From: Gammaproteobacteria bacterium
Lineage (GTDB): Bacteria; Pseudomonadota; Gammaproteobacteria; Ga0077536
DNA length: 17,072 nt
Assembly (NCBI GenBank): GCA_030639105.1
Contig: DAOWDI010000196.1
Coordinates: 1 to 17,072, forward strand
Direction of reading: 5' to 3'
The notes below the pieces were generated by a model, which saw only the letters and a list, made by a program, of their open reading frames with translations, ran no database searches and had not been told where the DNA came from. The position numbers and the translations under genes are program-made. Position 1 is the first letter of the stretch, and every line of letters begins with the position of its first letter. Below, piece after piece: positions 2,251 to 15,907 of this stretch.

Positions 2251-2565
2251 AGCCAGAGGATAGCTCTCGGGCTTGAAAGCGAGCATCGGGATTGCCGCAC
2301 GCTGCTTGAACAATCGCGTGATGCGCAGAAGGATGGAGAAAGCCTCGCCGCCTGGAATGATCGGGCGACCGCGTTATTATCGAAGGTATCGAAACAGACG
2401 GAAATACGATCATCCGGCAGTTGCGTCCTCGACACTGCCCGGGTACCGCAACTGAACCGATCCTGTCCAGGGACGCGTGCCTTAGGCTGGGCCAATTTAT
2501 TGCAGCAAACAAGCTGGTGGATATCACTATCATCAGGTGAGTCGTGCACCATTGTTGTCGTCCTT
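2251..2565 (+). pseudogene. open but unassigned stretch, probably decayed coding DNA leading into the sulfotransferase gene
   Basis: One + frame is open for 105 codons from 2251 to the TGA at 2566 but has no early start codon. Its first part reads like a charged helical protein (LESEHRDCRTLLEQ, then DGESLAAWNDRATALL). Its last codons read TIVVVL and stop just where the sulfotransferase P-loop begins in another frame. In the middle, the sulfotransferase frame also looks coding (DRVIIEGIETDGNT; LGQFIAANKLVDITIIR) before a TGA at 2538. Alternating frames with protein-like content suggest a gene broken by small indels. I do not recognise the family of the upstream part. This may instead be ordinary intergenic DNA with chance open frames. 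Confidence 0.35.
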
Positions 2566-3287
2566 TGACCTCGGGTCGCAGCGGTTCGTCTCTTCTGGGC
2601 GCGATACTCGCCGATGCAGGGGCAGATTTCGGGCTCGGCACGCCGCAAGAATGGGATCCCCGCAGTGGGCAGATGGAGGGCACTGCCATCAGGTGGGCTG
2701 CGCATCATTATCGTCGTGCTTTTGACATCAGCGAGGGTAGGAAATACGTATTGTCACCGGCGCTCGAAACCAAATTTCGTCTGCGTCGCGGACGCAGGTA
2801 TTTGAGACATGCCTTGAAAGAGAGTCGCTTTCTAAAGATCGGCGACCTGGACCTTATCGTGCAACCGAGTTTTAAATTGGGGTATAACCCCCGGGTCGTC
2901 CTGAATTATCGCCAGCTCGAACTTAACCTCCCGAGTCTGCTGGTCGGGCGCACCCACATTGGACCCGACCAACTGGCGCGGGAATATGTGCGTATCTATC
3001 GGCAGGGTCTGATGCTGCTGCGGACGTTTGGTGGATGCGTCGTTGAATATAATGAACTACAGGACACGCAAGCGGGCGGATGGGCCGAGGCGCTTGCGGC
3101 GACAACGGGTCTGGATAGATTGGCGTTGATGGACAGTCGTCGTCGACGGCTTCAAGGTGAAGCCGACCCGCGGAACGTGGAACCGATTTACCTCGAAGCT
3201 TATACGCTGTACGAGGCGATGCGATCGCTCGGTGGTCGGGCAATCGAACCGTCGCGGCAGGTCGTGCGGGCTCGGGACCCGGTGTAG
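2544..3287 (+). CDS. sulfotransferase-family protein, N-terminus probably damaged
   Basis: The 247-residue product resembles bacterial sulfotransferase-fold proteins, which transfer sulfate from PAPS. TSGRSGSSLLGAILADAG at residues 9-26 fits the 5'-phosphosulfate-binding loop and following helix. PRVVLNYRQLELNLPSLL at about 116-133 fits the 3'-phosphate-binding strand and helix, although the usual R-x-P is changed to YRQ. EYVRIYRQGLMLL and CVVEYNEL fit the later helix-strand pair. The only available start in frame is GTG 2544, giving MHHCCRPL in place of the usual hydrophobic strand. One frame away the DNA reads TIVVVL, and removing two T from the run CTTTGACC at about 2563-2570 would join VVL to TSGRSGSS. 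A two-base insertion is therefore likely. The substrate is unknown. It converges with atpG, 81 bases away, with no clear terminator between. Confidence 0.6.
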   Translation: MHHCCRPLTSGRSGSSLLGAILADAGADFGLGTPQEWDPRSGQMEGTAIRWAAHHYRRAFDISEGRKYVLSPALETKFRLRRGRRYLRHALKESRFLKIGDLDLIVQPSFKLGYNPRVVLNYRQLELNLPSLLVGRTHIGPDQLAREYVRIYRQGLMLLRTFGGCVVEYNELQDTQAGGWAEALAATTGLDRLALMDSRRRRLQGEADPRNVEPIYLEAYTLYEAMRSLGGRAIEPSRQVVRARDPV

Positions 3288-3368: not shown

Positions 3369-4262
3369 TTATGTCTGCTCTCCTATGATCGTCTCGAAAC
3401 CCGTGACCACATCCAGCAGTTCGGCGGTGATTGCATTTTGTCGAGCCCGGCATAAGACCGTCGTCACTTCCTCGATATGGTCATCGAGGTTGCGCTCCGC
3501 CGAGCGCATGGCGGCCAGGCGGCTGGCGTGTTCGCTGGCCTGGGATTCGGCGCAGGCGCGGAAGATCGAAGCAAATAGATACTGACGCAGCAGCCGGGCA
3601 AGTAGCCGTTGGCGGTCCATACTGAAGGTTGGCAGCATACGTGAGGGCCATGCTTCTTCCTCCAAGTGGCGAAAGCGGTGCAGGTCGACGGGGTACAATT
3701 CGAAGCCGGTGGGATGATAAGCCCCGCCGCCAGAATGACGGTTGTAGAACAGTAAGACCTTGTGTACGCCCGCCCGTCCACGCCAGTCGTCGACCTTGAG
3801 CAGGATCTGCTGCACGGTGGTCGTGATGCGGGTGGCCGATCCGGGCAGCGGAAGGTCTTCATGGACAACCTGGCCATGCCGCTCGAGTGTGGCGGCCACC
3901 CGTGCGCCGACGGCGAGCAGCAGGCAGTTTCCCGGATCCGTAAGCGTCGGGTCCGTGTGCTTCAAGGCAAAGGTTGCGATCTCCTCATTGAAGCGGCCAC
4001 ACAGACCGTGGTCGGAACCGAATATGATGACTCCAAGGTGGTACGGTTCGCCTGTGTGCCGGGCAGGGGCGGGCGGTATTTCCAATCCTCCTAACACCAC
4101 GTGCAGTCCCCGCTCCACGGTTCGATAGTAGCCGGCGAGGGCACTGACCGCCTGCTCATATTGCCGGATACTCGCTGCCGACAGCGCTTTCATGGTCTTG
4201 ACGATGGTGCGCAGTTCCTCAAGGCTATCCAGCTGAGAGTGCAGTCGTTCGAGGGATTCCAT
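3369..4262 (-). CDS. atpG: N-type ATP synthase gamma subunit
   Basis: Gamma is the central rotor shaft of the F1 part, coupling c-ring rotation to the alpha/beta catalytic sites. The 297-residue product has the typical N-terminal helix (RTIVKTMKALSAASIRQYEQA, about residues 18-38). The Rossmann-like core includes VIIFGSDHGLCGRFNEEI, and the C-terminal helix includes SERNLDD- and RARQNAITAELLDVVTGFE-type residues. The C-terminal RARQNAIT-ELLDV-G is the family signature. Length is normal. It is the last gene of the N-ATPase operon, starting five bases after the atpA stop, so it is likely translated by ribosomes coming from atpA. ATG 4262 starts the conserved N-terminal helix. It converges with the sulfotransferase-like gene. 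Confidence 0.95.
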   Translation of the reverse strand: MESLERLHSQLDSLEELRTIVKTMKALSAASIRQYEQAVSALAGYYRTVERGLHVVLGGLEIPPAPARHTGEPYHLGVIIFGSDHGLCGRFNEEIATFALKHTDPTLTDPGNCLLLAVGARVAATLERHGQVVHEDLPLPGSATRITTTVQQILLKVDDWRGRAGVHKVLLFYNRHSGGGAYHPTGFELYPVDLHRFRHLEEEAWPSRMLPTFSMDRQRLLARLLRQYLFASIFRACAESQASEHASRLAAMRSAERNLDDHIEEVTTVLCRARQNAITAELLDVVTGFETIIGEQT

Positions 4263-4267
4263 GGCCT

Positions 4268-5791
4268 TTACGCCCGTGACTGGCCGCGCAGCCCAATTAT
4301 TGCATCGCGGGCCATCTCCAGGACTTGCCGCCAGGCCTCATCGTCAAGCTTCCTACCGGCCTCCATGCGCTCGCACAATTCGGGCAGTTCTCTCGACATG
4401 CGTTCCTGCACCGCCACTTCGGCCGCGGCCACCTGATCGAGCGGCAGATCGTCAAATAGCCCTGCATTAACCGCCTTGAGCCCGGCTATTTGTTTGCTGG
4501 CGCGCAGTGGCTGATGCTCGCTTTGTTTCAGGACTTCGCGCACGCGCCGGCCATGCTCGATGGTCCGCCGGGTGTCTTCGTCCAGGCGCGTGGCAAAACG
4601 GGCGAAGGTCTCGAGTTCCTCGAATTGAGCATAGGCGAGACGCAGATCCCCGGCTACGGCGCGCAACGCCGGGTACTGCGTCTTGCCGCCGACCCGCGAT
4701 ACCGACTTGCCCACGTCGATGGCCGGCAGCAGGCCTTTGTGAAACAACGTTGGTGAGAGATAGACCTGACCATCGGTGATGGAGATGAGGTTAGTCGGGA
4801 TGTAGGCCGAGATATCCTGCGCCTGAGTTTCAATAATGGGCAGCGCCGTCAGCGAGCCGCCGCCGCGGGCAGCGCTCAGGTGGGTGGCCCGTTCCAGCAG
4901 GCGAGAGTGGATGTAGAAGATATCGCCCGGATAGGCTTCCCGCCCCGGCGGACGGCGCAGCAGCAAGGATAGCTCGCGATAGGCGCGGGCATGCCGGGTG
5001 AGATCGTCATAGACGATGAGCGCGTCACGACCTTTTTCCATGAAATATTCGGCCATGGTCATGGCGGCATACGGTGTGATGAAGCGCAGCCCCGGTGGAT
5101 CCTCATCCGATGCCACGATCACAATCGTGTTGTCCAGGGCTTCGTGCCGGCGCAAGGTGTCCACCACCCGGGCCACGGCGGTCCCACGCTGGCCGATGGC
5201 GCAATAGATGCATACCACTTCCTTGTCACGCTGGTTGATAATGGTGTCGACGGCCACTGAAGTCTTGCCCGTCTGACGATCGCCAACGATCAGCTCACGC
5301 TGACCGCGGCCGATGGGAATGAGGGCATCAATCGCCTTGATGCCGGTTTCCAGCGGCACCGTGACCGGGGCACGTTCGATAATGGCGGGTGCGGGACGCT
5401 CCACCGGCCACCGCTCGCTAAACCGCAGGGGCTTGCCGTGATCGAGCAAGCGTCCCGTGGCGTCGATCACTCGCCCCAGCAATCCCTCGCCGATGGGTGT
5501 GTCCGCCTCCCGTCCGGTGCCGCTGACCTCTATGCCCGCGCTCAACTTATCACTGTCGCCGAGCAGCATGACCCCGATCTCATCCGGCTCAAGGTTGATG
5601 GCAACACCCAACATGCCGCCCCGGAACCGTAGGAGTTCCTCCGCGGTCGCACCGGGGAGGCCTTTGATGCGCGCGATGCCGCCGCCCACCTGCACCACCG
5701 TGCCGGTTTCCCGCAGGCACAGATCGAGCGCATGGCGTTCGCTGGCCGCGTGCACGGTGGTCATGACGTCATCGAGTAGCGCCTGGAGCAA
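4268..5791 (-). CDS. atpA: N-type ATP synthase alpha subunit
   Basis: Alpha forms the non-catalytic nucleotide sites of the F1 hexamer and gives the arginine finger to beta. The 507-residue product has the beta-barrel N-terminus ([16 protein letters not shown]) and the Walker A loop GDRQTGKTS at 170-178. It also has the conserved blocks [49 protein letters not shown] and the arginine-finger segment [10 protein letters not shown]. The start is taken as TTG 5791, because GGAGT lies seven bases upstream and the atpF stop is four bases away; ATG 5764 would drop nine residues. The sequence diverges from housekeeping alpha subunits in the way N-type enzymes do. It lies between atpF and atpG in one polycistronic unit. 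Confidence 0.96.
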
Positions 5792-5795
5792 GGGT

Positions 5796-6560
5796 TTACT
5801 CCGCAGCCGCCGCTTGAGTCGAACCGAAGGCGTCTTCGACGGCGGCGGCCAGCCCTTCCATATAGTCGGCCAGATTCCAGCTCAGCCGCCGCCCGCCGCG
5901 GGTAAGTTCGATCCCGCACAGCAACTCCGGGGACTGGTTGTATTCCACCGCAACACCATCGGCCAGGTGTTCGTGGATCGCGCGAGTCAGACGGCCGCGT
6001 ACGGTGGGATCCAGCTCGAACGCGCTGGCGATGCGAACCGGCTCGGTGGTATCCGCCAGCAGCTCACGGGTGTCGGAGTCCAACGACTTCAGGCGTTCGA
6101 TAAACCGGTGAACGACCTGCCGGTCGAGGTCTGAGTCCGCCAGCTCGCTCAACGCCTTGCGCGAGATGGCCTGGATGGCCTCAGCCGCCCGGTGGCGTAG
6201 GTTGCCCAAGAACTCCTCCTTTTCCTGATTGGCCTGACGCTGCCAGTTTGCGCGGGTCTCGGCCGTTTCCACACGCGCCACCTCGAGCATTCGCTTTTTC
6301 TGTTGCTCGGCTTCTGCTCCGGCCGTGGCCAGGATCTGCTCGCGTGCGCGTTCCAATTCATCGCGCTTTTCCTGATAGCGTCGAGCGTTCTCCGCGGCCT
6401 GCTGCTCGCGCGCCTGCGCCTCATTCAGCCGCCCGGCGATGCGCTGCTCTCGACGGTCCATGGCACGGATGACCGGCTGGTACAAAAAGCGTTTCAGCAG
6501 CCAGACTAAGATGAGAAAATTGACGATCTGCGCCGAGACCGTGATCCAGTCGATCTCCAT
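5796..6560 (-). CDS. atpF: N-type ATP synthase b subunit with delta-like C-terminal extension
   Basis: Subunit b is the peripheral stalk that holds F1 still against the rotating c ring. The 254-residue product starts with a single membrane helix (about residues 5-25, [20 protein letters not shown]). A long charged coiled coil follows to about residue 130, rich in E, R, Q and A. The last ~110 residues are globular: [20 protein letters not shown] looks like the C-terminal half of the delta subunit. A normal b subunit is near 156 residues. The operon has no atpH, so the tail probably replaces delta, as is known for N-type ATPases. The start has GGGAGG eight bases upstream, inside the end of atpE, whose stop is three bases away. 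Confidence 0.93.
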
Positions 6561-6563
6561 CGG

Positions 6564-6842
6564 TCAGCCTCCCACCGGCGTCGTGACGTAGTCCCAGAAG
6601 GGGTTGGCGAAGATCAGGATCATGGCCACCACGAAACAGTAGATGGCGGTGGACTCGATCATGGCCAGTCCGACAAACAAGGTGCGTGTGATGGTGGCGG
6701 ACTCGTCCGGCTGCTGGGCGATGGCGCTCAAGGCCTGGGCCACCGCGCGGCCTTCCCCCAATGCCGGACCGATGGAGCCGATGGCGATGGTCAGCCCCGC
6801 GGTGACGATCGATACCATGCCGATCAGTGAGATGTTTTCCAT
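6564..6842 (-). CDS. atpE: N-type ATP synthase c subunit (rotor ring)
   Basis: Subunit c forms the membrane ring that carries ions across Fo. The 92-residue product is two membrane helices (about 8-38 and 52-80) joined by the polar loop AQQPDES. The ion-site glutamate is E63 in MIESTAIY, followed by S64, T65 and Y68, residues that bind Na+ in sodium-type rings. A second carboxylate, E30 in GPALGEGRA, faces it where Ilyobacter-type rings have glutamine. This two-carboxylate pattern is typical of N-type rings. Ion choice is not settled by sequence: N-ATPases were proposed to be Na+ pumps, but the characterised Burkholderia N-type ring was reported as proton-specific with 17 subunits. ATG 6842 is chosen because AAGGAGAG lies seven bases upstream; an ATG 39 bases further out gives an arginine-rich tail unlike the family. 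Confidence 0.97.
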   Translation of the reverse strand: MENISLIGMVSIVTAGLTIAIGSIGPALGEGRAVAQALSAIAQQPDESATITRTLFVGLAMIESTAIYCFVVAMILIFANPFWDYVTTPVGG

Positions 6843-6855
6843 GCTGCTCTCCTTA

Positions 6856-7566
6856 TCAATCTGGCGTTGGTTCCTGCGCATTGCTGGATTGTTCGGTGTG
6901 TCGATGGGTCGATGTCGCGGACGCGATATAGACCATCGCCAGGATGGCGAAGATATAGGCTTGAATAATACCGGTCAGCAGGCCCAGCATCTGCATGACA
7001 ACGGGAAAGAAATAGGGGGTCAGGCTGAGCAGGATGGCGACGATGACCGTACCGCTCATGATATTGCCGTAGAGCCTCACGGCCAGGGCGATGGTGCGCG
7101 AGATCTCGCCGATGACATTAAACGGCAGCATAAACCAGGTCGGTTTGATGTAATGCTGCAAATAGTTCAGTGGCCCTTCGTCGGCAACGCCATAGAGCGG
7201 CACCGCGACGAAGACGCAAATGGCCAGCGCGGTGGTAGTGGAGAGCGACCCGGTCGGCGCCATGTAGCCGGGAACGACGTTGAGCAGATTGGCCATGGCG
7301 ATGAATAGAAATAATGTGCCGACAAAGGGTAGAAATCTACCGGGCTCCTGGCGGCTCACCTCGCGGATCTGATCCCGGATGCCGCTGACCAACACCTCCA
7401 GCAGGTTCTGCCAGCGAGACATCGCCGTGGTGGTGGACAGGCGGCGCGTGACCAACCAGGAGATCAAGGTCAGCAGCGCCATCACCAGCCAGGTGAAGAC
7501 AATGGTGGCATTGAGCGAGAACCCTCCCAATTGCCAGAAGACGATGCCGTCGGGACTGATGGTCAT
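6856..7566 (-). CDS. atpB: N-type ATP synthase a subunit
   Basis: Subunit a is the stator half-channel protein that passes ions to the c ring. The 236-residue product is strongly hydrophobic with five to six predicted membrane helices. The essential arginine is R164 in ALAVRLYGNIMSG, matching the RLFGN motif of the family. Helix 5 carries the expected glutamine in GIIQAYIFAIL (Q202). NLLNVVPGYMAPTGSLSTTTALA is the usual second conserved block. Its ATG overlaps the atpR stop by four bases (ATGA), so translation is coupled. The short, polar C-terminal tail (HRHTEQSSNAQEPTPD) is not conserved in standard a subunits. It sits between atpR and atpE, the canonical N-ATPase position. Confidence 0.96.
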   Translation of the reverse strand: MTISPDGIVFWQLGGFSLNATIVFTWLVMALLTLISWLVTRRLSTTTAMSRWQNLLEVLVSGIRDQIREVSRQEPGRFLPFVGTLFLFIAMANLLNVVPGYMAPTGSLSTTTALAICVFVAVPLYGVADEGPLNYLQHYIKPTWFMLPFNVIGEISRTIALAVRLYGNIMSGTVIVAILLSLTPYFFPVVMQMLGLLTGIIQAYIFAILAMVYIASATSTHRHTEQSSNAQEPTPD

Positions 7567-7859
7567 GCCTCGGAGGCCTGTTTGGTGTGGCGGGAGCGCA
7601 TGCGTCGAATAATGACGAGGCGCGATAGCGTGAAACCGATCGCCGCTGTTAGCAGGTGTTGCCAGCCGGCGTAATAAGCGAGGAGGTAAAACCCGGCAAG
7701 CGCCAGGGAGAAGCGCAGCAGCAGGCTGCCCAGCATCCGTAAGGCCGGACGATGGGCTCGCTCAATACCGTTGAGCGTTACCCACAGTCCCCAGAAAAAC
7801 GCCAGGCCAAGCAGCGCGCCGGCGGTGAATGAGGCCATCAATAGCGGCAGTTCGTTCAC
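7563..7859 (-). CDS. atpR: N-ATPase accessory membrane protein AtpR
   Basis: AtpR is a small membrane protein found only in N-type ATPase operons; it is thought to help assemble or stabilise the Fo part, but its exact role is not established. The 98-residue product has three hydrophobic segments (about 4-26, 40-62 and 66-84). Family-like features include the ALLGLAFFWGLWVTL helix, R49 in SLLLRFSLALAGFYLL, and GFTLSRLVIIRR near the end, followed by a basic tail. The start is taken as GTG 7859, which overlaps the antiporter stop as GTGA; ATG 7838 would drop seven residues. A longer in-frame reading upstream is arginine- and glycine-rich antisense-like sequence lying over the antiporter gene and is not real. 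Confidence 0.9.
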   Translation of the reverse strand: MNELPLLMASFTAGALLGLAFFWGLWVTLNGIERAHRPALRMLGSLLLRFSLALAGFYLLAYYAGWQHLLTAAIGFTLSRLVIIRRMRSRHTKQASEA

Positions 7860-9052
7860 TGCCGGGTCTTCCCGGTGGGGATATCGCCGACCTGCGTGAG
7901 TGTCCACCGCGTGAGGACGGGGCCGATGAGCTCGAAGACGACCGTCGCACCGAGCACCACCGGTAGAACAATGTCCTTGATTTCCGGAAGGCGCTGAGCC
8001 GCGAGCAGGGCCATGCCGATGGCGACCCCGGCCTGGGGCAGCAGGGCGAGGCCCATGCGGTTGCGGATCACTGGCTCGGCGCCGCTCAACCAGCCGCCCA
8101 ACCGTGTACCGAGGATGCGGCCGGTGATCCGCAGCCCGATGTAGGCTGCGCCCAGCAAGCCGACCTGCGCCAATGCCTCCACGTGCAGGGCGGCGCCGGC
8201 CAGTAAGAAGAACAGGATCATGAACGGCCATTCGATGCCCTCGATCTCGTGGAAGGGACGGTCGTGATGGCTGGCAAGATTGGCCACCACGGCGCCCAGC
8301 GCCATGGCCGCCAGGATATAGGAGACCTCCACCCACACCGCGAGCCCCGCGCACAGCAGGACCAGGCCGAGTGCCTCGGCCTGGGTCGGCTCGCCCGGGA
8401 GGATGCGGCCGGTGAGATAGGCCATGGGCAGGCCGAGAATGACGCCTAAGCAGACCGCGCCACCGATCTCCCAGGCGCCGGCAGTTAGGATGTCAACCGC
8501 ACCGGCCGCACCGGTAAGCGCCTGGGCGGCCGCGAGCAGCAGGCTGAACAGCAGCAGCCCCCAGGCATCGTCGATGGCTACGATCCCCAGCAGGGTAGCG
8601 GTGAACTTACCTTCGGCATGAGCTTCGCGCACGACATCGACGGTGGCCGCGGGTGCCGTGGCCGGGGCGATGCCGGCCAACAACAGAGCCACTTCGATGG
8701 GTACGCCGAACAGGGTCAGGATGGTGAACATCAGCAGCGCCGTCATGAGGACCTCGCCAATGGACATGGTAAGCACCGCGCGGCCCAGCTCATGGAGTCT
8801 TATCCGGGTCATGTTCTGCCCCAGCAGGAAACCGATCATGGCCAATGCGACATCGGTCAGCACTGGAAACCATGCATCGGTGAACGCAGGCAGCCAGTCG
8901 AGTACCGACGGACCGATAACGAACCCCGCCAGCAGCAACAGGGTGACCCGCGGCAAGGGGGTGTGCCGCCCGGCCAGGTCGGCCAGCAGGCCGAGCAGAA
9001 ACAGGCCGCCAAAGGTGATCAGGATCTGGGCGATAGCGGGGATGTCAGTCAC
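7856..9052 (-). CDS. CPA2-type monovalent cation:proton antiporter within the N-ATPase operon
   Basis: The 398-residue product is almost all membrane helices (12 or so), the size of the membrane domain of Kef/NapA-type CPA2 antiporters, which exchange Na+ or K+ for H+ across the inner membrane. The paired aspartates D161-D162 in VAIDDAWGLLLF match the ion-binding DD of electrogenic NapA/NhaA-like members. The ATAPAATVDVVREAHAEGKF segment before it is the usual CPA2 block. There is no C-terminal RCK/TrkA-N nucleotide-binding domain. The start is taken as GTG 9052: AGGAG lies eight bases upstream and the codon overlaps the atpQ stop (GTGACTGA). Its own stop overlaps the atpR GTG. It is thus translationally locked between atpQ and atpR, where the standard N-ATPase operon has no gene. 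Substrate ion is not predictable here. Confidence 0.9.
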   Translation of the reverse strand: MTDIPAIAQILITFGGLFLLGLLADLAGRHTPLPRVTLLLLAGFVIGPSVLDWLPAFTDAWFPVLTDVALAMIGFLLGQNMTRIRLHELGRAVLTMSIGEVLMTALLMFTILTLFGVPIEVALLLAGIAPATAPAATVDVVREAHAEGKFTATLLGIVAIDDAWGLLLFSLLLAAAQALTGAAGAVDILTAGAWEIGGAVCLGVILGLPMAYLTGRILPGEPTQAEALGLVLLCAGLAVWVEVSYILAAMALGAVVANLASHHDRPFHEIEGIEWPFMILFFLLAGAALHVEALAQVGLLGAAYIGLRITGRILGTRLGGWLSGAEPVIRNRMGLALLPQAGVAIGMALLAAQRLPEIKDIVLPVVLGATVVFELIGPVLTRWTLTQVGDIPTGKTRQ

Positions 9053-9348
9053 GCTCGCTCTCCTGTTTGATCCAGTACCAGGCATTGATGCAGCCCAGCG
9101 CCATGCCGATGATGAGAAAGGTCAGTGTCCAGGAGACTTGACCCGGCCAACGTCGGTCCAGCCAGACACCCGCGGCGATGCCAAGGAGGGTGGGTACGGC
9201 CACGGACCAGCCCACCAGGCCGAACATGCCGAGCCCGAACCAGGCGCTGCGCCGGTCCTCTTTGCGGGCGCGCAGCTTGCGCCCGGCCCGGCGGCCGATC
9301 TGCTCACCCAGCCTTGCCGGCGGTTTGTGCCTGTGTTCATCCGGTGTT

Positions 9349-9356
<8 letters not shown>
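9045..9356 (-). CDS. atpQ: N-ATPase accessory protein AtpQ (AtpI/AtpZ-like)
   Basis: AtpQ is the small two-helix membrane protein of N-ATPase operons, related to AtpZ/AtpI proteins that aid c-ring assembly or divalent cation supply. The 103-residue product has a basic N-terminus (RRAGRKLRARKEDRR), then hydrophobic helices at about 42-66 (GLVGWSVAVPTLLGIAAGVWLD) and 75-96. It ends GCINAWYWIKQE, a family-like tail. The start is taken as TTG 9356, because AGGAGAAG stands at the right distance upstream and the codon overlaps the atpC stop (TTGGCTAA). The next in-frame start further upstream, at 9443, would run 90 bases into atpC with arginine-rich, antisense-like sequence. Confidence 0.88.
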
Positions 9357-11269
<1,913 letters not shown>

Positions 11270-11354
11270 TCAGGTTAAATTTCTGGTTCTCCCGTTCACT
11301 TTACGGGATCCCCGGTCTTGTAGGTGCGAAATCGACCGCTACGGCGCGCATCGT

Positions 11355-11381
11355 CCCCGCTACTGGGCGTAATAAGCGGGG
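11355..11381. repeat. 7-bp inverted repeat in the divergent promoter region
   Basis: CCCCGCT (11355-11361) and AGCGGGG (11375-11381) are perfect inverted copies separated by 13 bases. No T tract follows on either strand, so it is not a normal terminator. It lies between atpD and the FNR-type palindrome and could be an operator or an RNA hairpin in the atp leader. The remaining parts of the 357-base gap (11177-11354 and 11436-11533) show nothing else I can name. Confidence 0.4.
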
Positions 11382-11387
11382 ATTGCT

Positions 11388-11429
11388 TTGACCCAGGTCA
11401 CAATATTTTTGTCGAGGTGCCGATAGAAT
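11388..11429 (+). promoter_or_regulatory. class II FNR/CRP-type promoter for the glycan cluster
   Basis: TTGACCCAGGTCAC (11388-11401) is a near-perfect FNR/Anr-type site (TTGAC-N4-GTCAA with one mismatch), with the inner palindrome TGACC-CA-GGTCA. TAGAAT at 11424-11429 is a five-of-six match to the -10 consensus. If it is the -10, transcription starts near 11436 and the palindrome is centred at -41.5, exactly the class II activator position of FNR. There is no good -35 hexamer, as expected of activator-dependent promoters. The first gene begins at 11534, leaving a leader of about 100 bases. Confidence 0.5.
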
Positions 11430-11533
11430 GTATACGTAGCAAAATTTGGATAATAAGGCTAAAAAACCTGCTGCGGTACGCTACTAGAGCCGGACGTTTC
11501 GGCTCCGGATCCTCGACCAAATGGAGATAGCAG

Positions 11534-12718
11534 ATGACAAGTCCAAACATTCGGCTGCTGGAGCATAGGCTGGTGCGCGAACACGGACCCTCAATCGCCC
11601 TCGTCAGTACGTATATACCAACCAAGTGCGGTCTCGCAACATTCACTCATTCCCTGGTCACCGCATTTACCGCACGCCGCGCCGCGCCCGATATCGGTGT
11701 TGTGAGAATCGACAACGGGGATGATGATAACAGTGCCGATAGTAAAGTCGTGGCGCGGATGGATCCGAATTGTGCACGCTCGCTGAGCGCTGCGGCGGCG
11801 AAACTTAACACCTACGAGGTGGTGATCGTCCAACATGAGTTCGGTATATTCGGCCGCGACGACGGTGCTTCCGTTATCACCTTGCTGGAACAACTCAACG
11901 GACAGGTGATAGTGACACTGCACACGGTCCCGACCTCGCCGACGAGGCGGCAGAAGCAGATCCTCGAGCGCATCGGTGAGTTGGCCGATGCCGTCATCGT
12001 GATGTCGAATGCCGCGAGGCGGGTGCTCGATCGTCGTTACGCGATAACCCCGGAGAAGCTGACCGTCGTCCCGCACGGAGCACATTGTTATGTTAGCGAC
12101 GATAGCGATCGTGCGGACGGGAGACCGGTCATCCTCACCTGGGGGTTAGTGGGGCCCGGCAAAGGCATCGAATGGGGGATTGAGGCCCTGGCGCAGCTGC
12201 GGGACCTCGATCCGCGGCCGTTGTATCGAGTCGTCGGACAAACTCATCCAAACGTATTGCGCAGGGAAGGGGAGCGCTACCGTGAACACCTGTTGGCAAT
12301 AGCAGAGCAGCGCGGTGTAACCGGCATGTTGCAGATGCGCTCCGAATACCTCGATCACCAGCGCCTCGAACGTGTGGTCGGATCGGCCGATATCGTTTTG
12401 CTGCCATATGACTCGCGCGATCAGGCAACCTCGGGCGTTTTGATCGATGCGGTCGCCGCCGGCAAACCCGTCGTGGCAACCCGGTTTCCGCATGCCTCGG
12501 ATTTGTTGTCGACGGGCGCGGGCCGCCTGGTGCCGCACCAGGACGCACAAGCCATAGCCGACGCACTGAGGGCGTTGCTCTGTGAGCCTGATCTTTATGA
12601 CGCTGCGGCTACGCGAGCGCGATCGTTGGCGAAAACTTTGAGTTGGACGAGTGTCGCCGCAAGGTATGAGCGTCTTGCCGCCACGTTATACGCAGGTCGC
12701 ACGCCACAGGTTGCGTGA
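11534..12718 (+). CDS. GT4-type glycosyltransferase
   Basis: The 394-residue product is a GT-B fold retaining glycosyltransferase, which moves a sugar from a nucleotide sugar to an acceptor at the cytoplasmic side. The N-terminal domain opens with IALVSTYIPTKCGLATFTHSL (residues 21-41), including the glycine-containing loop of GT4 enzymes. HEFGIFG at 101-107 and TLHTVP at 128-133 are usual acceptor-domain motifs. The donor domain holds LTWGLVGPGKGIEWGIEAL (201-219) and SADIVLLPYDSRDQATSGVLIDAVAAGKPVVAT at 284-316. The usual E-x7-E pair is replaced by polar or acidic residues (D296 region and D305), so the donor pocket is atypical. GGAGA lies seven bases before ATG 11534. Its stop overlaps the next gene (GTGA). 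Given the mannoside-type neighbours, GDP-mannose is a plausible donor, but this is inference. Confidence 0.9.
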   Translation: MTSPNIRLLEHRLVREHGPSIALVSTYIPTKCGLATFTHSLVTAFTARRAAPDIGVVRIDNGDDDNSADSKVVARMDPNCARSLSAAAAKLNTYEVVIVQHEFGIFGRDDGASVITLLEQLNGQVIVTLHTVPTSPTRRQKQILERIGELADAVIVMSNAARRVLDRRYAITPEKLTVVPHGAHCYVSDDSDRADGRPVILTWGLVGPGKGIEWGIEALAQLRDLDPRPLYRVVGQTHPNVLRREGERYREHLLAIAEQRGVTGMLQMRSEYLDHQRLERVVGSADIVLLPYDSRDQATSGVLIDAVAAGKPVVATRFPHASDLLSTGAGRLVPHQDAQAIADALRALLCEPDLYDAAATRARSLAKTLSWTSVAARYERLAATLYAGRTPQVA

Positions 12719-13911
12719 GGTTTCCATCCCCAAACTTCCAGCATCTTCAGCGTTTGTCTGATGATACTGGATTGATCGAACATGCCTGGTTCGAGCTGCC
12801 GCGCCGATGCTGCGGATATACCGTCGATGACGTTGCACGCGGTCTGTTGGTGATCTGCCGGGAGCCGCGGGCAGAAACGGTACCGCGGCTGGTAAGCTTG
12901 GCGGAAATCTATCTGGACTTCCTCTATCACGCATTAGGTAGCAACGGTCGTTATCGCAACCGGATGAGCTACGCGCGCGAGTGGCTGGATGAGTCCCCGT
13001 CCGACGACGCGCACGGGCGCGCCCTATGGGCGCTGGGAACGGCTGCGCTCAGCGCGCCTTCGGCGGCGATGAAACGTGCTGCGAACCGTTTGTTCGAGGC
13101 CGCGAGCTCCTTCGATACGCCGTATGCGCGCGCGAATGCCTATGCGATTTTGGGGGCGGCGGCGTTGCTCGAAACAGACCCCCGCAACGATCACGCGAAG
13201 CGGCTCCTTGAGCGATGCACTGTGCGCCTGCAGGGATTGCGGGTCTCGCAACAATGGCCGTGGCCAGAACCCAGGCTGACCTATGACAACGCCCGTATCC
13301 CGCAGAGTTTGTTGGTCGCGGGCGCAGTGACCGATAATGCCCCGATGGTAGAGGAGGGTTTGGCGCTACTAAAATGGCTGGTCGATGTCGAGACGCAAGG
13401 TCCGCATTTTAGTTTCGCGCCGAGTGGTGGCTGGCGAGAGGATGAGCCGCGGCCGGGATTCGACCAGCAGCCACTCGAAGCGGCAGCGATGGTCGACGCC
13501 TGTGTGGACGCATTTTGGGTTTCCGGCGATATAAGGTGGGCTGATCTTGGGTTGAATGCGGTACGCTGGTTTTTAGGCGCCAATGATAAAAGCCTTACGC
13601 TCTACGACGAAAACACCGGTGGTTGTTGTGACGGTCTTACCGCTAGTGGGGTGAATGAGAATCAGGGTGCGGAATCGACCTTGGCCTGTATCGCCGCGTT
13701 GCAGCAGGTGCGGCGAATTGACTCAATGCTCGCCCATCGATGCCTGCAAGGCGAGCAGCAGGTCGGTTTCGTGAGCGGTAACCGCACCAACCGCACAATC
13801 GGCGGCCCCGTAGGTCAGATAGATGGTGCCATCACCAAATCGGTGAGCGCCGCCGACAAAGACCACGTCATCGACATCGCCCCACCGCTCCCACGGCAAC
13901 TCGGGCGTTAA
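12715..13911 (+). CDS. six-hairpin (alpha/alpha) barrel protein paired with GT4 glycosyltransferases
   Basis: The 398-residue product belongs to the helical, six-hairpin-glycosidase-like proteins often encoded next to GT4 and GH130 genes and annotated only as glycosyltransferase-associated. Visible conserved blocks are CCGYTVDDVARGLLV (residues 32-46), SPSDDAHGRALWALGTAAL (94-112), DNARIPQSLL and NENQGAESTLACIAAL near the end. Many repeated helices alternate with these loops. Catalytic activity is unproven. The start is GTG 12715, overlapping the GT4 stop by four bases. The family-like part ends at about 13710. The last ~60 codons run antisense through the 3' end of the GH130 gene and read like low-information sequence (GGPVGQIDG, APPLPRQLGR), so an original stop near 13720 may have been lost. 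Confidence 0.75.
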   Translation: MRFPSPNFQHLQRLSDDTGLIEHAWFELPRRCCGYTVDDVARGLLVICREPRAETVPRLVSLAEIYLDFLYHALGSNGRYRNRMSYAREWLDESPSDDAHGRALWALGTAALSAPSAAMKRAANRLFEAASSFDTPYARANAYAILGAAALLETDPRNDHAKRLLERCTVRLQGLRVSQQWPWPEPRLTYDNARIPQSLLVAGAVTDNAPMVEEGLALLKWLVDVETQGPHFSFAPSGGWREDEPRPGFDQQPLEAAAMVDACVDAFWVSGDIRWADLGLNAVRWFLGANDKSLTLYDENTGGCCDGLTASGVNENQGAESTLACIAALQQVRRIDSMLAHRCLQGEQQVGFVSGNRTNRTIGGPVGQIDGAITKSVSAADKDHVIDIAPPLPRQLGR

Positions 13912-14730
13912 TATCGGGTCCGCAAGTTTTCCCGCAATGCGTCCCGTATCATGGTCGAGCAGCGCAACATTCATGGTGTAGACGCCATCGCTATTGCGCT
14001 CGTGGAAGAACAGCAAGAGGCCGTGTTCGGTGTGTAGTGGCGGCGCGCCGGCACCGATGCCCAGTGCCCCGGGCGACGGGCGCAATAGGGTGTGATGATC
14101 GAGTTCGTCCAGATGCAATCGCCAGTAACTCTCGTCGCTCCGCAGCAAGGCATCGAGCGAGTCAAACACGGCGAGCTGCATGTCGGGATGTAGACGATGG
14201 ATCAGTGCCACGCGCCCATCGCTGAGATTGAAGATGACGGCATCCTTGTTTTCGTACCCCGCAGGGCCAATGATGTGACCGGAATCGGTGTGCAGGACAA
14301 ACCGGTCGACCTCATAGATGAGGCGATCGAGCCCGATCTGCCAGGGACTGCCGTGGCTGGGATCGGGGAAATGCGTATAGGTCATGACGATATGTTCTTG
14401 ACCGTCGCTATGAACTCGCTGGACCCGGGGATCTTCATAAGAGAACACGGTATCGGACGAACCTCGAGCCAACACCTGCTGGAATTCATAATGGATTCCG
14501 TCGCTCGAGGTGAATACCAGAACATCGGAGATGTAATCGATAAAGCGGGGCCCCGTATCACCGTTGCGCCGGTAGCCGTTGCGGATACCGCGAGCGAACA
14601 GATGCAGGATCCCATCATGGTGGATGACCCCGGCATTGAATATCGCCCCGTAACCGGGAACCGCGTCCGGCGCAACGATGGGTTCGGTGCTTACTCGACG
14701 TAGGTTGACTGATGACATGTCTGCAAGCAT
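13723..14730 (-). CDS. GH130 family beta-mannoside phosphorylase or mannosidase
   Basis: GH130 enzymes (formerly the PH1107-related glycosidases) cleave beta-mannosides, mostly by phosphorolysis to mannose 1-phosphate. The 335-residue product shows the five-bladed propeller pattern. The general-acid motif is YEDPR (D100). Later come ENKDAVIF (K162), ALIHR (H178-R179), LLFFHER (H243), GDVDDVVFVGG and the closing YLTYGAADCAVG. K162 and the H-R pair lie where GH130 phosphorylases keep basic residues for phosphate, which favours phosphorylase over hydrolase; I could not align structures. ATG 14730 is the longest start, but ATG 14718 (MSSVNLRR) is equally likely, since a predicted promoter would start transcription near 14728. 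It is divergent from the second GH130 gene and its 3' end overlaps the helical-barrel gene by 189 bases. Confidence 0.9.
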   Translation of the reverse strand: MLADMSSVNLRRVSTEPIVAPDAVPGYGAIFNAGVIHHDGILHLFARGIRNGYRRNGDTGPRFIDYISDVLVFTSSDGIHYEFQQVLARGSSDTVFSYEDPRVQRVHSDGQEHIVMTYTHFPDPSHGSPWQIGLDRLIYEVDRFVLHTDSGHIIGPAGYENKDAVIFNLSDGRVALIHRLHPDMQLAVFDSLDALLRSDESYWRLHLDELDHHTLLRPSPGALGIGAGAPPLHTEHGLLLFFHERNSDGVYTMNVALLDHDTGRIAGKLADPILTPELPWERWGDVDDVVFVGGAHRFGDGTIYLTYGAADCAVGAVTAHETDLLLALQASMGEH

Positions 14731-14734
14731 AGAA

Positions 14735-14764
14735 GGTATAGTTCATCGTTGAACGTCGATGCAA
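14735..14764 (-). promoter_or_regulatory. possible sigma70 promoter for the minus-strand GH130 gene
   Basis: Read on the minus strand, TTGCAT (14764-14759) and TATACC (14740-14735) are separated by 18 bases. The predicted start, near 14728, would make the message nearly leaderless for ATG 14718. The match is moderate and one of several AT-rich possibilities in the 145-base divergent gap. Confidence 0.3.
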
Positions 14765-14875
14765 CGGTTTGTGACATTAAACTATCAAAAACGTGATGGC
14801 AAACGCATGATCGCTTACGATAGCAGCAGATCCGCAACAGTTTTTAACCGCAAGGCGATGGTGAGCAATAGGTAA

Positions 14876-15907
14876 ATGGGCGACGGTAAGCACGAATTGT
14901 TCCGGCGTTACGACGGCAACCCCGTCTTGGTTGCCGACGACTGGCCGTACACTGTCAACTCGGTATTCAACCCGGGTGTGGTGCAGCATGAAAATGACAC
15001 TGTCCTGCTGGTACGGGTCGAAGACCGCAGCGGTCTGTCGCATCTCGGCGTGGCTCGCAGCAAAGATGGGTACACCGATTGGCAGATTGATCCGGAACCG
15101 AGTTTCGAGGCCGACGAAAATCGGTTTGAGGAGACCTGGGGGATCGAGGACCCGCGGATCACCCGCTGCGATGATGAATATATGATCGTCTACACCGGAT
15201 TTTCGCGCGGCGGGCCTCTCGTGTGTCTGGCGGCGACCCAGGATTTTAGGACCTTCGAGCGCCGCGGCGTGCTGATGGTCCCCGAAGACAAGGACGCAGC
15301 CTTGTTCCCCTGCACCTTCAACGGCCGCTGGGGACTCCTGCATCGGCCAGTATCCGCCGGTTCCGAAAACGCCCGCGTGGGGGCCCACATCTGGTTGTCC
15401 TGGAGTCCCGATCTGCGTCATTGGGGTGATCACACGGTCTTGATCCACGCGCGGGAGGGCGGTTGGTGGGATGCGAACAAGGTCGGACTCGGTCCCCCTC
15501 CTCTGCTCACCGAATATGGCTGGTTAGTGCTGTACCATGGCGTGCGCGTCACCGCGTCGGGGTCCATCTACCGCCTGGGTCTCGCCCTACTCGACCGCGA
15601 GAACCCCGAGATCATGCTGGTCCGCGGCAACGAGTGGATATTCGGGCCCGCGCGCGATTATGAGCGCAGCGGCGACGTCCCCGATGTCGTGTTCCCGTGC
15701 GGCTGGTTGCTCGATACGGATCAGCGGTCGCTACGCATCTATTACGGGGCCGCCGACACCTCCATTTGTGTCGCCACTGCCGACCTCGATGCGCTGGTCG
15801 CCCACCTGCATCGACACTGCATTTGTGGTTGCGCCCACGCGATCGGCTATCGTTGCCGGGTTGCGGCAAGCGAGCCGGTCGATATCAGCAATAACGGGTC
15901 AGGGTGA
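14876..15907 (+). CDS. second GH130 family beta-mannoside phosphorylase or mannosidase
   Basis: The 343-residue product is a GH130 paralogue from a different subgroup than its divergent neighbour. Motifs in order are NPVLVADDWPYTVNSVFNPGVV (15-36), LLVRVEDRSGLSHLGVARS (44-62), GIEDPRIT with general acid D92, and PEDKDAALFPCTFNGRWGLLHRP (136-158) with K139 and H156-R157. Then LGPPPLLTEYGWLVLYHGV (205-223), DVPDVVFPCG (267-276) and YYGAADTSICVAT (289-301) follow. The lysine and H-R residues suggest phosphate use, as in GH130 phosphorylases. After about residue 310 the tail has several cysteines (HRHCICGCAHAIGYRC) and is not part of the family fold. ATG 14876 has AGG five bases upstream. The next gene starts ten bases after the stop, so the two form an operon. 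Confidence 0.92.
   Translation: MGDGKHELFRRYDGNPVLVADDWPYTVNSVFNPGVVQHENDTVLLVRVEDRSGLSHLGVARSKDGYTDWQIDPEPSFEADENRFEETWGIEDPRITRCDDEYMIVYTGFSRGGPLVCLAATQDFRTFERRGVLMVPEDKDAALFPCTFNGRWGLLHRPVSAGSENARVGAHIWLSWSPDLRHWGDHTVLIHAREGGWWDANKVGLGPPPLLTEYGWLVLYHGVRVTASGSIYRLGLALLDRENPEIMLVRGNEWIFGPARDYERSGDVPDVVFPCGWLLDTDQRSLRIYYGAADTSICVATADLDALVAHLHRHCICGCAHAIGYRCRVAASEPVDISNNGSG

Follow-up and report, generated by a model that had tools for sequence, protein, structure and literature searches.

Why does a gene for a cation:proton antiporter lie inside an operon for an N-type ATPase? The order of the N-type operon is given as atpDCQRBEFAG, quoted from Dibrova et al. 2010 (PMC6688271, PMC8620254). 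In the window, by which I mean the whole stretch of 17,072 nucleotides analysed here, a complete N-type ATPase operon was found on the minus strand in the order atpDCQ-antiporter-RBEFAG. The source is a gammaproteobacterial genome that is 57% complete, with 1.5 Mb in 285 contigs. Using Pfam and NCBIfam, the genes were identified as atpD for the N-type beta subunit (9770..11176; best model alt_F1F0_F1_bet), atpC for epsilon (9349..9792), atpQ (ATPase_gene1, PF09527; 9045..9356), the antiporter gene (PF00999, 398 aa; 7856..9052), atpR (PF12966; 7563..7859), atpB for subunit a (6856..7566), atpE for subunit c (6564..6842), atpF for subunit b (5796..6560), atpA for the N-type alpha (4268..5791), and atpG for the N-type gamma (3369..4262). 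This gene order bears out the preliminary description, which had placed the antiporter between atpQ and atpR at the same coordinates. Both atpQ and atpR are present, a delta gene is absent, and the antiporter gene is the one interruption of the N-type order. The alpha, gamma, epsilon, a, b, c, Q, and R products all score above the cut-offs of the 'alternate F1F0' NCBIfam models, while the beta subunit is slightly below its best one (TIGR03305, 728.9 versus a cut-off of 752). Beyond the 5′ end of the operon (11534-15907), a glycosyltransferase gene and two GH130 phosphorylase genes are found, and such neighbours occur in none of the other eight gammaproteobacterial loci with an antiporter at this place, as far as the DNA examined extends. 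Just past atpG, on the opposite strand, there is an ORF of 247 aa without a Pfam match (2544-3287, plus strand).

How is the antiporter gene joined to its neighbours? The GTG at 9052 is the likelier start codon, because a Shine-Dalgarno-like AGGAG stands before it in the last codons of atpQ. Read from this GTG, the antiporter gene shares 8 nt with the end of atpQ, and its stop codon overlaps the GTG start codon of atpR by 4 nt. The stop and start codons shared with both neighbours, as first proposed, are thus real. Taking the start closest to the atpQ stop, the 8-nt overlap with atpQ was found in nine of nine gammaproteobacterial operons, irrespective of whether the antiporter is of the window type or of the NapA type described below. 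Moreover, the sequence over which atpQ ends and the antiporter gene begins is nearly identical across these nine operons; both kinds of antiporter begin with Val or Met, followed by Thr, Ser, or Asn and then by Asp or Glu. In insert-free operons, atpQ and atpR themselves overlap by 8 nt in 10 of the 30 examined, with starts such as ATGAATGAA, where the start nearest to the atpQ stop was chosen and some starts may be misplaced. Since the insert-free operons show an equal overlap and the gammaproteobacterial junctions are alike, the antiporter gene seems to occupy the former translational junction of atpQ and atpR. The insert of Nitrospirales is more loosely spaced, 107-108 nt after atpQ and 22-27 nt before atpR, which is in keeping with a separate origin.

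What kind of antiporter is encoded? The protein matches PF00999 in full length (111.7 bits against a cut-off of 26.2, profile positions 5-373 of 375), with the score taken on a 409-aa reading starting at 9085. In 22 aligned antiporters having 50-80% identity to the window protein, D161-D162 are invariant, and so are R308 and the QAG motif. The protein had been described as a CPA2 antiporter with a DD ion site; the invariant Asp pair confirms the DD site, while the CPA2 assignment is doubtful because the profile lies nearest to NhaP proteins of CPA1. As a single sequence, the window antiporter has no match among solved structures at E 0.01. The profile of the 22 sequences has six PDB chains under E 0.01, all of which are NhaP-type or named 'Sodium/hydrogen exchanger 7'. 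The best matches are 4cz8 (E 3e-9) and 4czb (E 1e-8), both named Na+/H+ antiporters, which I take to be PaNhaP and MjNhaP1 of CPA1. The likeness to the NhaP type is therefore this best profile match, whereas the DD pair of the window protein aligns with ND, the site of CPA1 NhaP proteins, in 4cz8 and 4czb. The likeness to NapA-type proteins, presumably CPA2 (4bwz and 5bz2), is the aligned DD site, and two proteins of the NapA type (L127 and L185) occupy the same slot in other genomes. In a profile comparison with these two, DD aligns with DD, but R312 aligns with their Lys, and the window profile has no match to the NapA chains at E 0.01. K305 of NapA is presumably the TM10 Lys of CPA2 antiporters. 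The R312 column has Arg, Lys, or Leu among the 22 aligned sequences. Because a DD site is combined with NhaP-type profile matches, the window antiporter is a member of the CPA superfamily with a CPA2-like site and a profile nearer to CPA1.

Is the arrangement limited to one strain? When GTDB contigs were scanned for the antiporter, 489 relatives were confirmed, and the best 80 of the 489 loci were analysed. A window-type gene lies between atpQ and atpR in 8 of these best 80. Six of them are gammaproteobacterial loci of Kineobactrum, Saccharospirillum, Thiohalobacter, and three MAGs (L004, L006, L007, L008, L009, and L011), and two are Nitrospirales MAGs (L015 and L018). The hosts with strain names are Thiohalobacter thiocyanaticus (L009, with the antiporter between I(Q) and R), Kineobactrum sediminis, and Saccharospirillum salsuginis. 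In 4 of the best 80, all of Nitrospirota (L013, L017, L019, and L020), the gene immediately precedes atpD at its 5′ side, in the same orientation and with a gap of about 0.15-0.33 kb, so it may have a promoter of its own there. All of the 12 atp-linked copies are within the first 18 of the best 80, and the remaining 68 loci, some on short contigs, have no atp genes in the DNA examined. When AtpR was sought in 26 genomes (drawn from 27 of the 80 loci, without L021; some genomes are incomplete), it was found in 10, exactly those with a linked copy, while 16 have the antiporter without AtpR. A search of plasmids yielded four records with homologues of 34-50% identity. The Nitrospirales loci L015 (from 10245) and L018 (from 3145) also have a tandem pair of atpE genes, the second of which encodes ESPAIF instead of ESTAIY. 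An isolated insertion in one strain with a separate promoter does not describe this gene: the slot is occupied in unrelated bacteria, and a promoter scan of 7400-11600 in the window found no sigma-70-like site on the operon strand. Three terminator-like sites were found versus 2.9 expected by chance; atpR contains two of them, on the operon strand.

I found that a different kind of antiporter sits in the same slot in some other operons. The locus L127 has a 408-aa PF00999 protein between Q and R, whose gene overlaps its neighbours by 8 and 4 nt. It has just 26% identity to the window antiporter over 168 residues, and its nearest solved relatives are structures of NapA-kind Na(+)/H(+) antiporters (5bz2, E 5e-27). 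The same arrangement exists in a second genome of this genus (L185; 11 genomes of the family were searched, 2 of which have AtpR). The genus is gammaproteobacterial and other than that of the window. In L173 of Nitrospirota, an ORF of 53 aa between Q and R resembles the C-terminal end of the NapA-like protein (45% across 33 residues; E 2e-7 when this pair alone is compared). Against either L127 or L185, no shuffle out of 1000 scored as high, compared with 804 of 1000 against the window antiporter. By this resemblance, the ORF is identified as a remnant of a NapA-like antiporter gene. No further NapA-like remnants were seen in the order of G968, where 121 genomes gave 14 matches and all but G1073 were inspected. 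The sole further match there that represents an N-ATPase with AtpR is L186, in which the contig ends inside atpR and the slot is out of view.

Is this common in N-ATPase operons? For AtpR (PF12966), three overlapping draws were searched, with 369 genomes from the class, 58 from relatives, and 398 from the phylum. Outside the window genome, 34 matches were obtained; the regions of all 34 were inspected, and 30 of them belong to N-ATPase operons, defined by at least four kinds of atp gene with atpB and atpE among them. An antiporter stands between Q and R in only one of these 30 sampled pseudomonadotal operons, namely L127 with its NapA-like gene. Among 245 Nitrospirota genomes, 19 have AtpR, with 20 matches altogether, and all 20 regions were inspected. 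Q and R of an N-ATPase are visible in ten of the regions, including the seed L184, which is from the same genome as L013. In none of these ten is the space between Q and R filled by a full-length antiporter gene, and that of the seed lies 5′ of atpD. Window-type copies in these N-ATPase loci were found by a local profile search, which other antiporter kinds in the flanks may escape. In summary, the antiporter recurs at this position in unrelated bacteria, but the arrangement is rare and not general among N-ATPase operons. The other large insert between atpQ and atpB in the surveyed operons is just a TPR-like segment in L146 (~7937-9598, reverse orientation; G570), where a 553-aa frame has TPR-like repeats, recognised by eye, fused to the N-terminus of atpB. 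In L184 (2743-4330, minus strand), atpA and atpG are separated by genes for a baeRF_family3 protein and a Ribosomal_S30AE protein; L170 has similar ORFs at this position, and L165 has them in another part of the flank.

How many times did the antiporter gene enter the slot? A tree built from four ATPase subunits of 43 loci unites the seven gammaproteobacterial window-type operons (the window included), the two NapA-like operons, and L126 in one clade (100/100), with the Nitrospirales operon L015 outside it. Ten of 53 loci were left out of this tree, and a quick tree of all 53 shows the same pattern. Grouping L015 with the gammaproteobacterial clade, L126 inside, was rejected (p-AU 4e-10). In the antiporter tree (29 rows; a wider quick tree has 71), the Nitrospirales copies between Q and R join standalone Nitrospirales copies (100/99), and a single origin of all copies between Q and R was rejected (p-AU 4e-89), whereas one clade of the gammaproteobacterial copies was not (p-AU 0.348). 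The groups for these tests were defined after the loci had been inspected. A single ancient insertion of the window type is thus rejected by both the antiporter and the ATPase tests. Because one origin is rejected, the trees indicate at least two insertions of the window type between Q and R, besides the 5′ position in Nitrospirota and the different antiporter family in the slot. The standalone copies L010 and L005 fall among or beside the gammaproteobacterial copies in the antiporter trees, so in this lineage the gene has moved out of operons or into them as well. L126, a close N-ATPase relative without the antiporter, is nested among the antiporter-bearing operons. This N-ATPase (L126/L196, G323) is split about 0.5 Mb apart, with atpD-atpC at 2.88 Mb and atpQRBEFAG at 3.37 Mb. 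A clade of the window-type operons and L126 without the NapA-like pair has a p-AU of 0.234, with which both a replacement of a window-type gene by the NapA-like gene and a separate arrival are compatible.

The antiporter genes are under purifying selection, with dN/dS of 0.09-0.21 by a simple method in six pairs, in five of which dS is 0.8-1.3 and the values are rough. The GC3 of the window antiporter gene (0.835) is inside the range of the operon (0.70-0.87), and its overall GC, 0.664, exceeds that of the other nine operon genes. No flanking ORFs (at least 100 aa, E 1e-15) are shared between any two of the nine gammaproteobacterial loci when 6-10 ORFs per locus are compared, and thus what is conserved is the operon together with its antiporter. 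N-ATPase was found in 3 of 36 genomes of the window's order, including that of the window, and in none of three other genomes of its genus. The other two of its family (L133 and L134) are distant on the tree and have no antiporter. Because the flanks are unshared, the order mostly has no N-ATPase, and the family members are distant, lateral transfer of the operon with the antiporter fits these observations; a mis-binned contig is also possible.

Which ion might the ATPase pump? The window c-subunit has two carboxylates (GEGR...ESTAIY), as in Na+-type sequences. ESTxxY is given as the Na+ motif of the c-subunit (PMC6504805, PMC10532065). However, a c-ring with Glu61-Thr62-Met63-Tyr66 was measured to be H+-specific (PMC5376962), and thus the sequence by itself does not settle Na+ coupling. 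It had been suggested to look for co-occurrence of the antiporter with c-subunit motifs. Of the operons with an antiporter, all 13 in which atpE is visible indeed have ESTxxY, but so have 30 of 40 others, and the association was taken as uninformative because the loci are related. Of the 11 genomes with an antiporter between Q and R, 9 also encode a full-length delta (OSCP) subunit of a canonical F-ATPase, the two exceptions being the 57%-complete genome of the window and G779, a MAG. The idea that a canonical F-ATPase is missing from these bacteria and that their N-ATPase serves as a synthase, driven by Na+ and fed by the antiporter, is therefore unsupported. In the genome of Thiohalobacter thiocyanaticus (G783), L195 has an apparently complete canonical F1Fo operon (~5.3-12.5 kb, reversed), with delta called by Pfam, alpha, beta, gamma, and a by tblastn, and I, c, b, and epsilon by eye; the ATPases of this species named in the available text of PMC6504805 are of the V type and the Na+ type only. 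Because of the Na+-type c motif and the delta gene in 9 of 11 genomes, the N-ATPase is most likely an extra Na+ pump.

What might the antiporter do beside such a pump? The same slot being used by two kinds of exchanger in several unrelated bacteria suggests a pairing of pump and exchanger. On balance, it is somewhat probable that the operon would make a Na+-type N-ATPase and a Na+ (or K+)/H+ exchanger as one unit of salt and pH homeostasis. The N-ATPase, judging from its c-subunit motif, would spend ATP for Na+ export, and the antiporter would swap Na+, or less likely K+, for H+ over the same membrane. The cell could then export Na+ by either ATP or the proton-motive force and convert either ion gradient to the other. 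I infer the substrate and direction of exchange, as well as the co-expression, the benefit, and any complex formation of the pair. A paired unit had already been proposed in the preliminary description; the recurrence, the two antiporter kinds, the shared junction, and the purifying selection speak for it, while its being a general arrangement does not hold (1 of 30). It is also conceivable, but quite unlikely, that the atpQ-atpR junction would be a docking slot for exchangers, at which AtpQ and AtpR hold the antiporter by the rotor, so that Na+ export is turned locally into H+ or K+ movement and lineages recruit different antiporter families.

Other explanations have to be weighed against the homeostasis unit. 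The antiporter may be a chance passenger that landed in the operon and gained translational coupling without working jointly with the ATPase, as might be expected from the rarity of the arrangement, the standalone relatives of the antiporter, and the operon L126 without it. This is unlikely, since the same kind of transporter came to the same place in separate lineages, two antiporter kinds are involved, one origin is rejected, and the TPR-like segment of L146 is the sole other large insert between atpQ and atpB. Alternatively, the two may work in series as an indirect proton pump, in which the N-ATPase builds a Na+ gradient and the antiporter admits Na+ and expels H+. Exchangers are reversible and the c motif is of the Na+ type, but DD exchangers are usually electrogenic and normally export Na+, and the canonical F-ATPase suggested by delta in 9 of the 11 genomes could pump H+ directly, which makes the series arrangement very improbable. 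A K+/H+ exchanger that balances charge or turgor during Na+ export is possible but not probable; it would be analogous to ntpJ, a K+ transporter gene in the operon of a Na+ rotary ATPase (PMC9945522), and some window-type homologues are named KefB in one data source. Against K+, the solved structures closest to the profile bear the names of Na+/H+ antiporters or sodium/hydrogen exchangers, and the slot's independent occupant is NapA-like. Thus, I favour Na+/H+ exchange within the homeostasis unit.

The role of N-ATPases is unsettled, because they are predicted Na+ pumps, yet one c-ring is H+-specific (PMC5376962), and salt induction of N-ATPase was not seen in one transcriptome (PMC3468840). 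A built-in exchanger acquired more than once points to Na+/H+ homeostasis as the job of the N-ATPase. In the available parts of the main texts of PMC4154653, PMC5376962, PMC6504805, PMC7784846, PMC12903955, PMC9927469, PMC3468840, and PMC3543383, no mention of an antiporter inside an N-ATPase operon was found, nor in those of PMC6688271, PMC10532065, PMC10308925, PMC12342949, PMC8620254, PMC9945522, and PMC8115632. The antiporter between Q and R is apparently undescribed in these papers, although Dibrova, Galperin and Mulkidjanian 2010 may have an earlier mention. The Thiohalobacter operon is called a typical atpDCIRBEFAG operon in the available text of PMC6504805, though the antiporter gene sits between I(Q) and R.

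How does the locus compare with known systems? It shares with the N-type operon atpDCQRBEFAG all nine genes in the same order, AtpQ and AtpR, the lack of delta, and an ESTxxY c-subunit, and differs from it by a tenth gene, the antiporter, at atpQ-atpR. The enterococcal operon ntpFIKECGABDJ for a V-type Na+-ATPase ends with the K+ transporter gene ntpJ (PMC9945522). Both operons encode a second cation transporter together with a rotary Na+-ATPase, predicted as such in the window. However, the enterococcal ATPase is of the V type and its KtrII K+ transporter gene comes last, whereas the ATPase of the window is of the N type and the antiporter gene lies inside the Fo part. By this analogy, the ntpJ operon may be regarded as the nearest precedent found for a transporter encoded in a pump operon.
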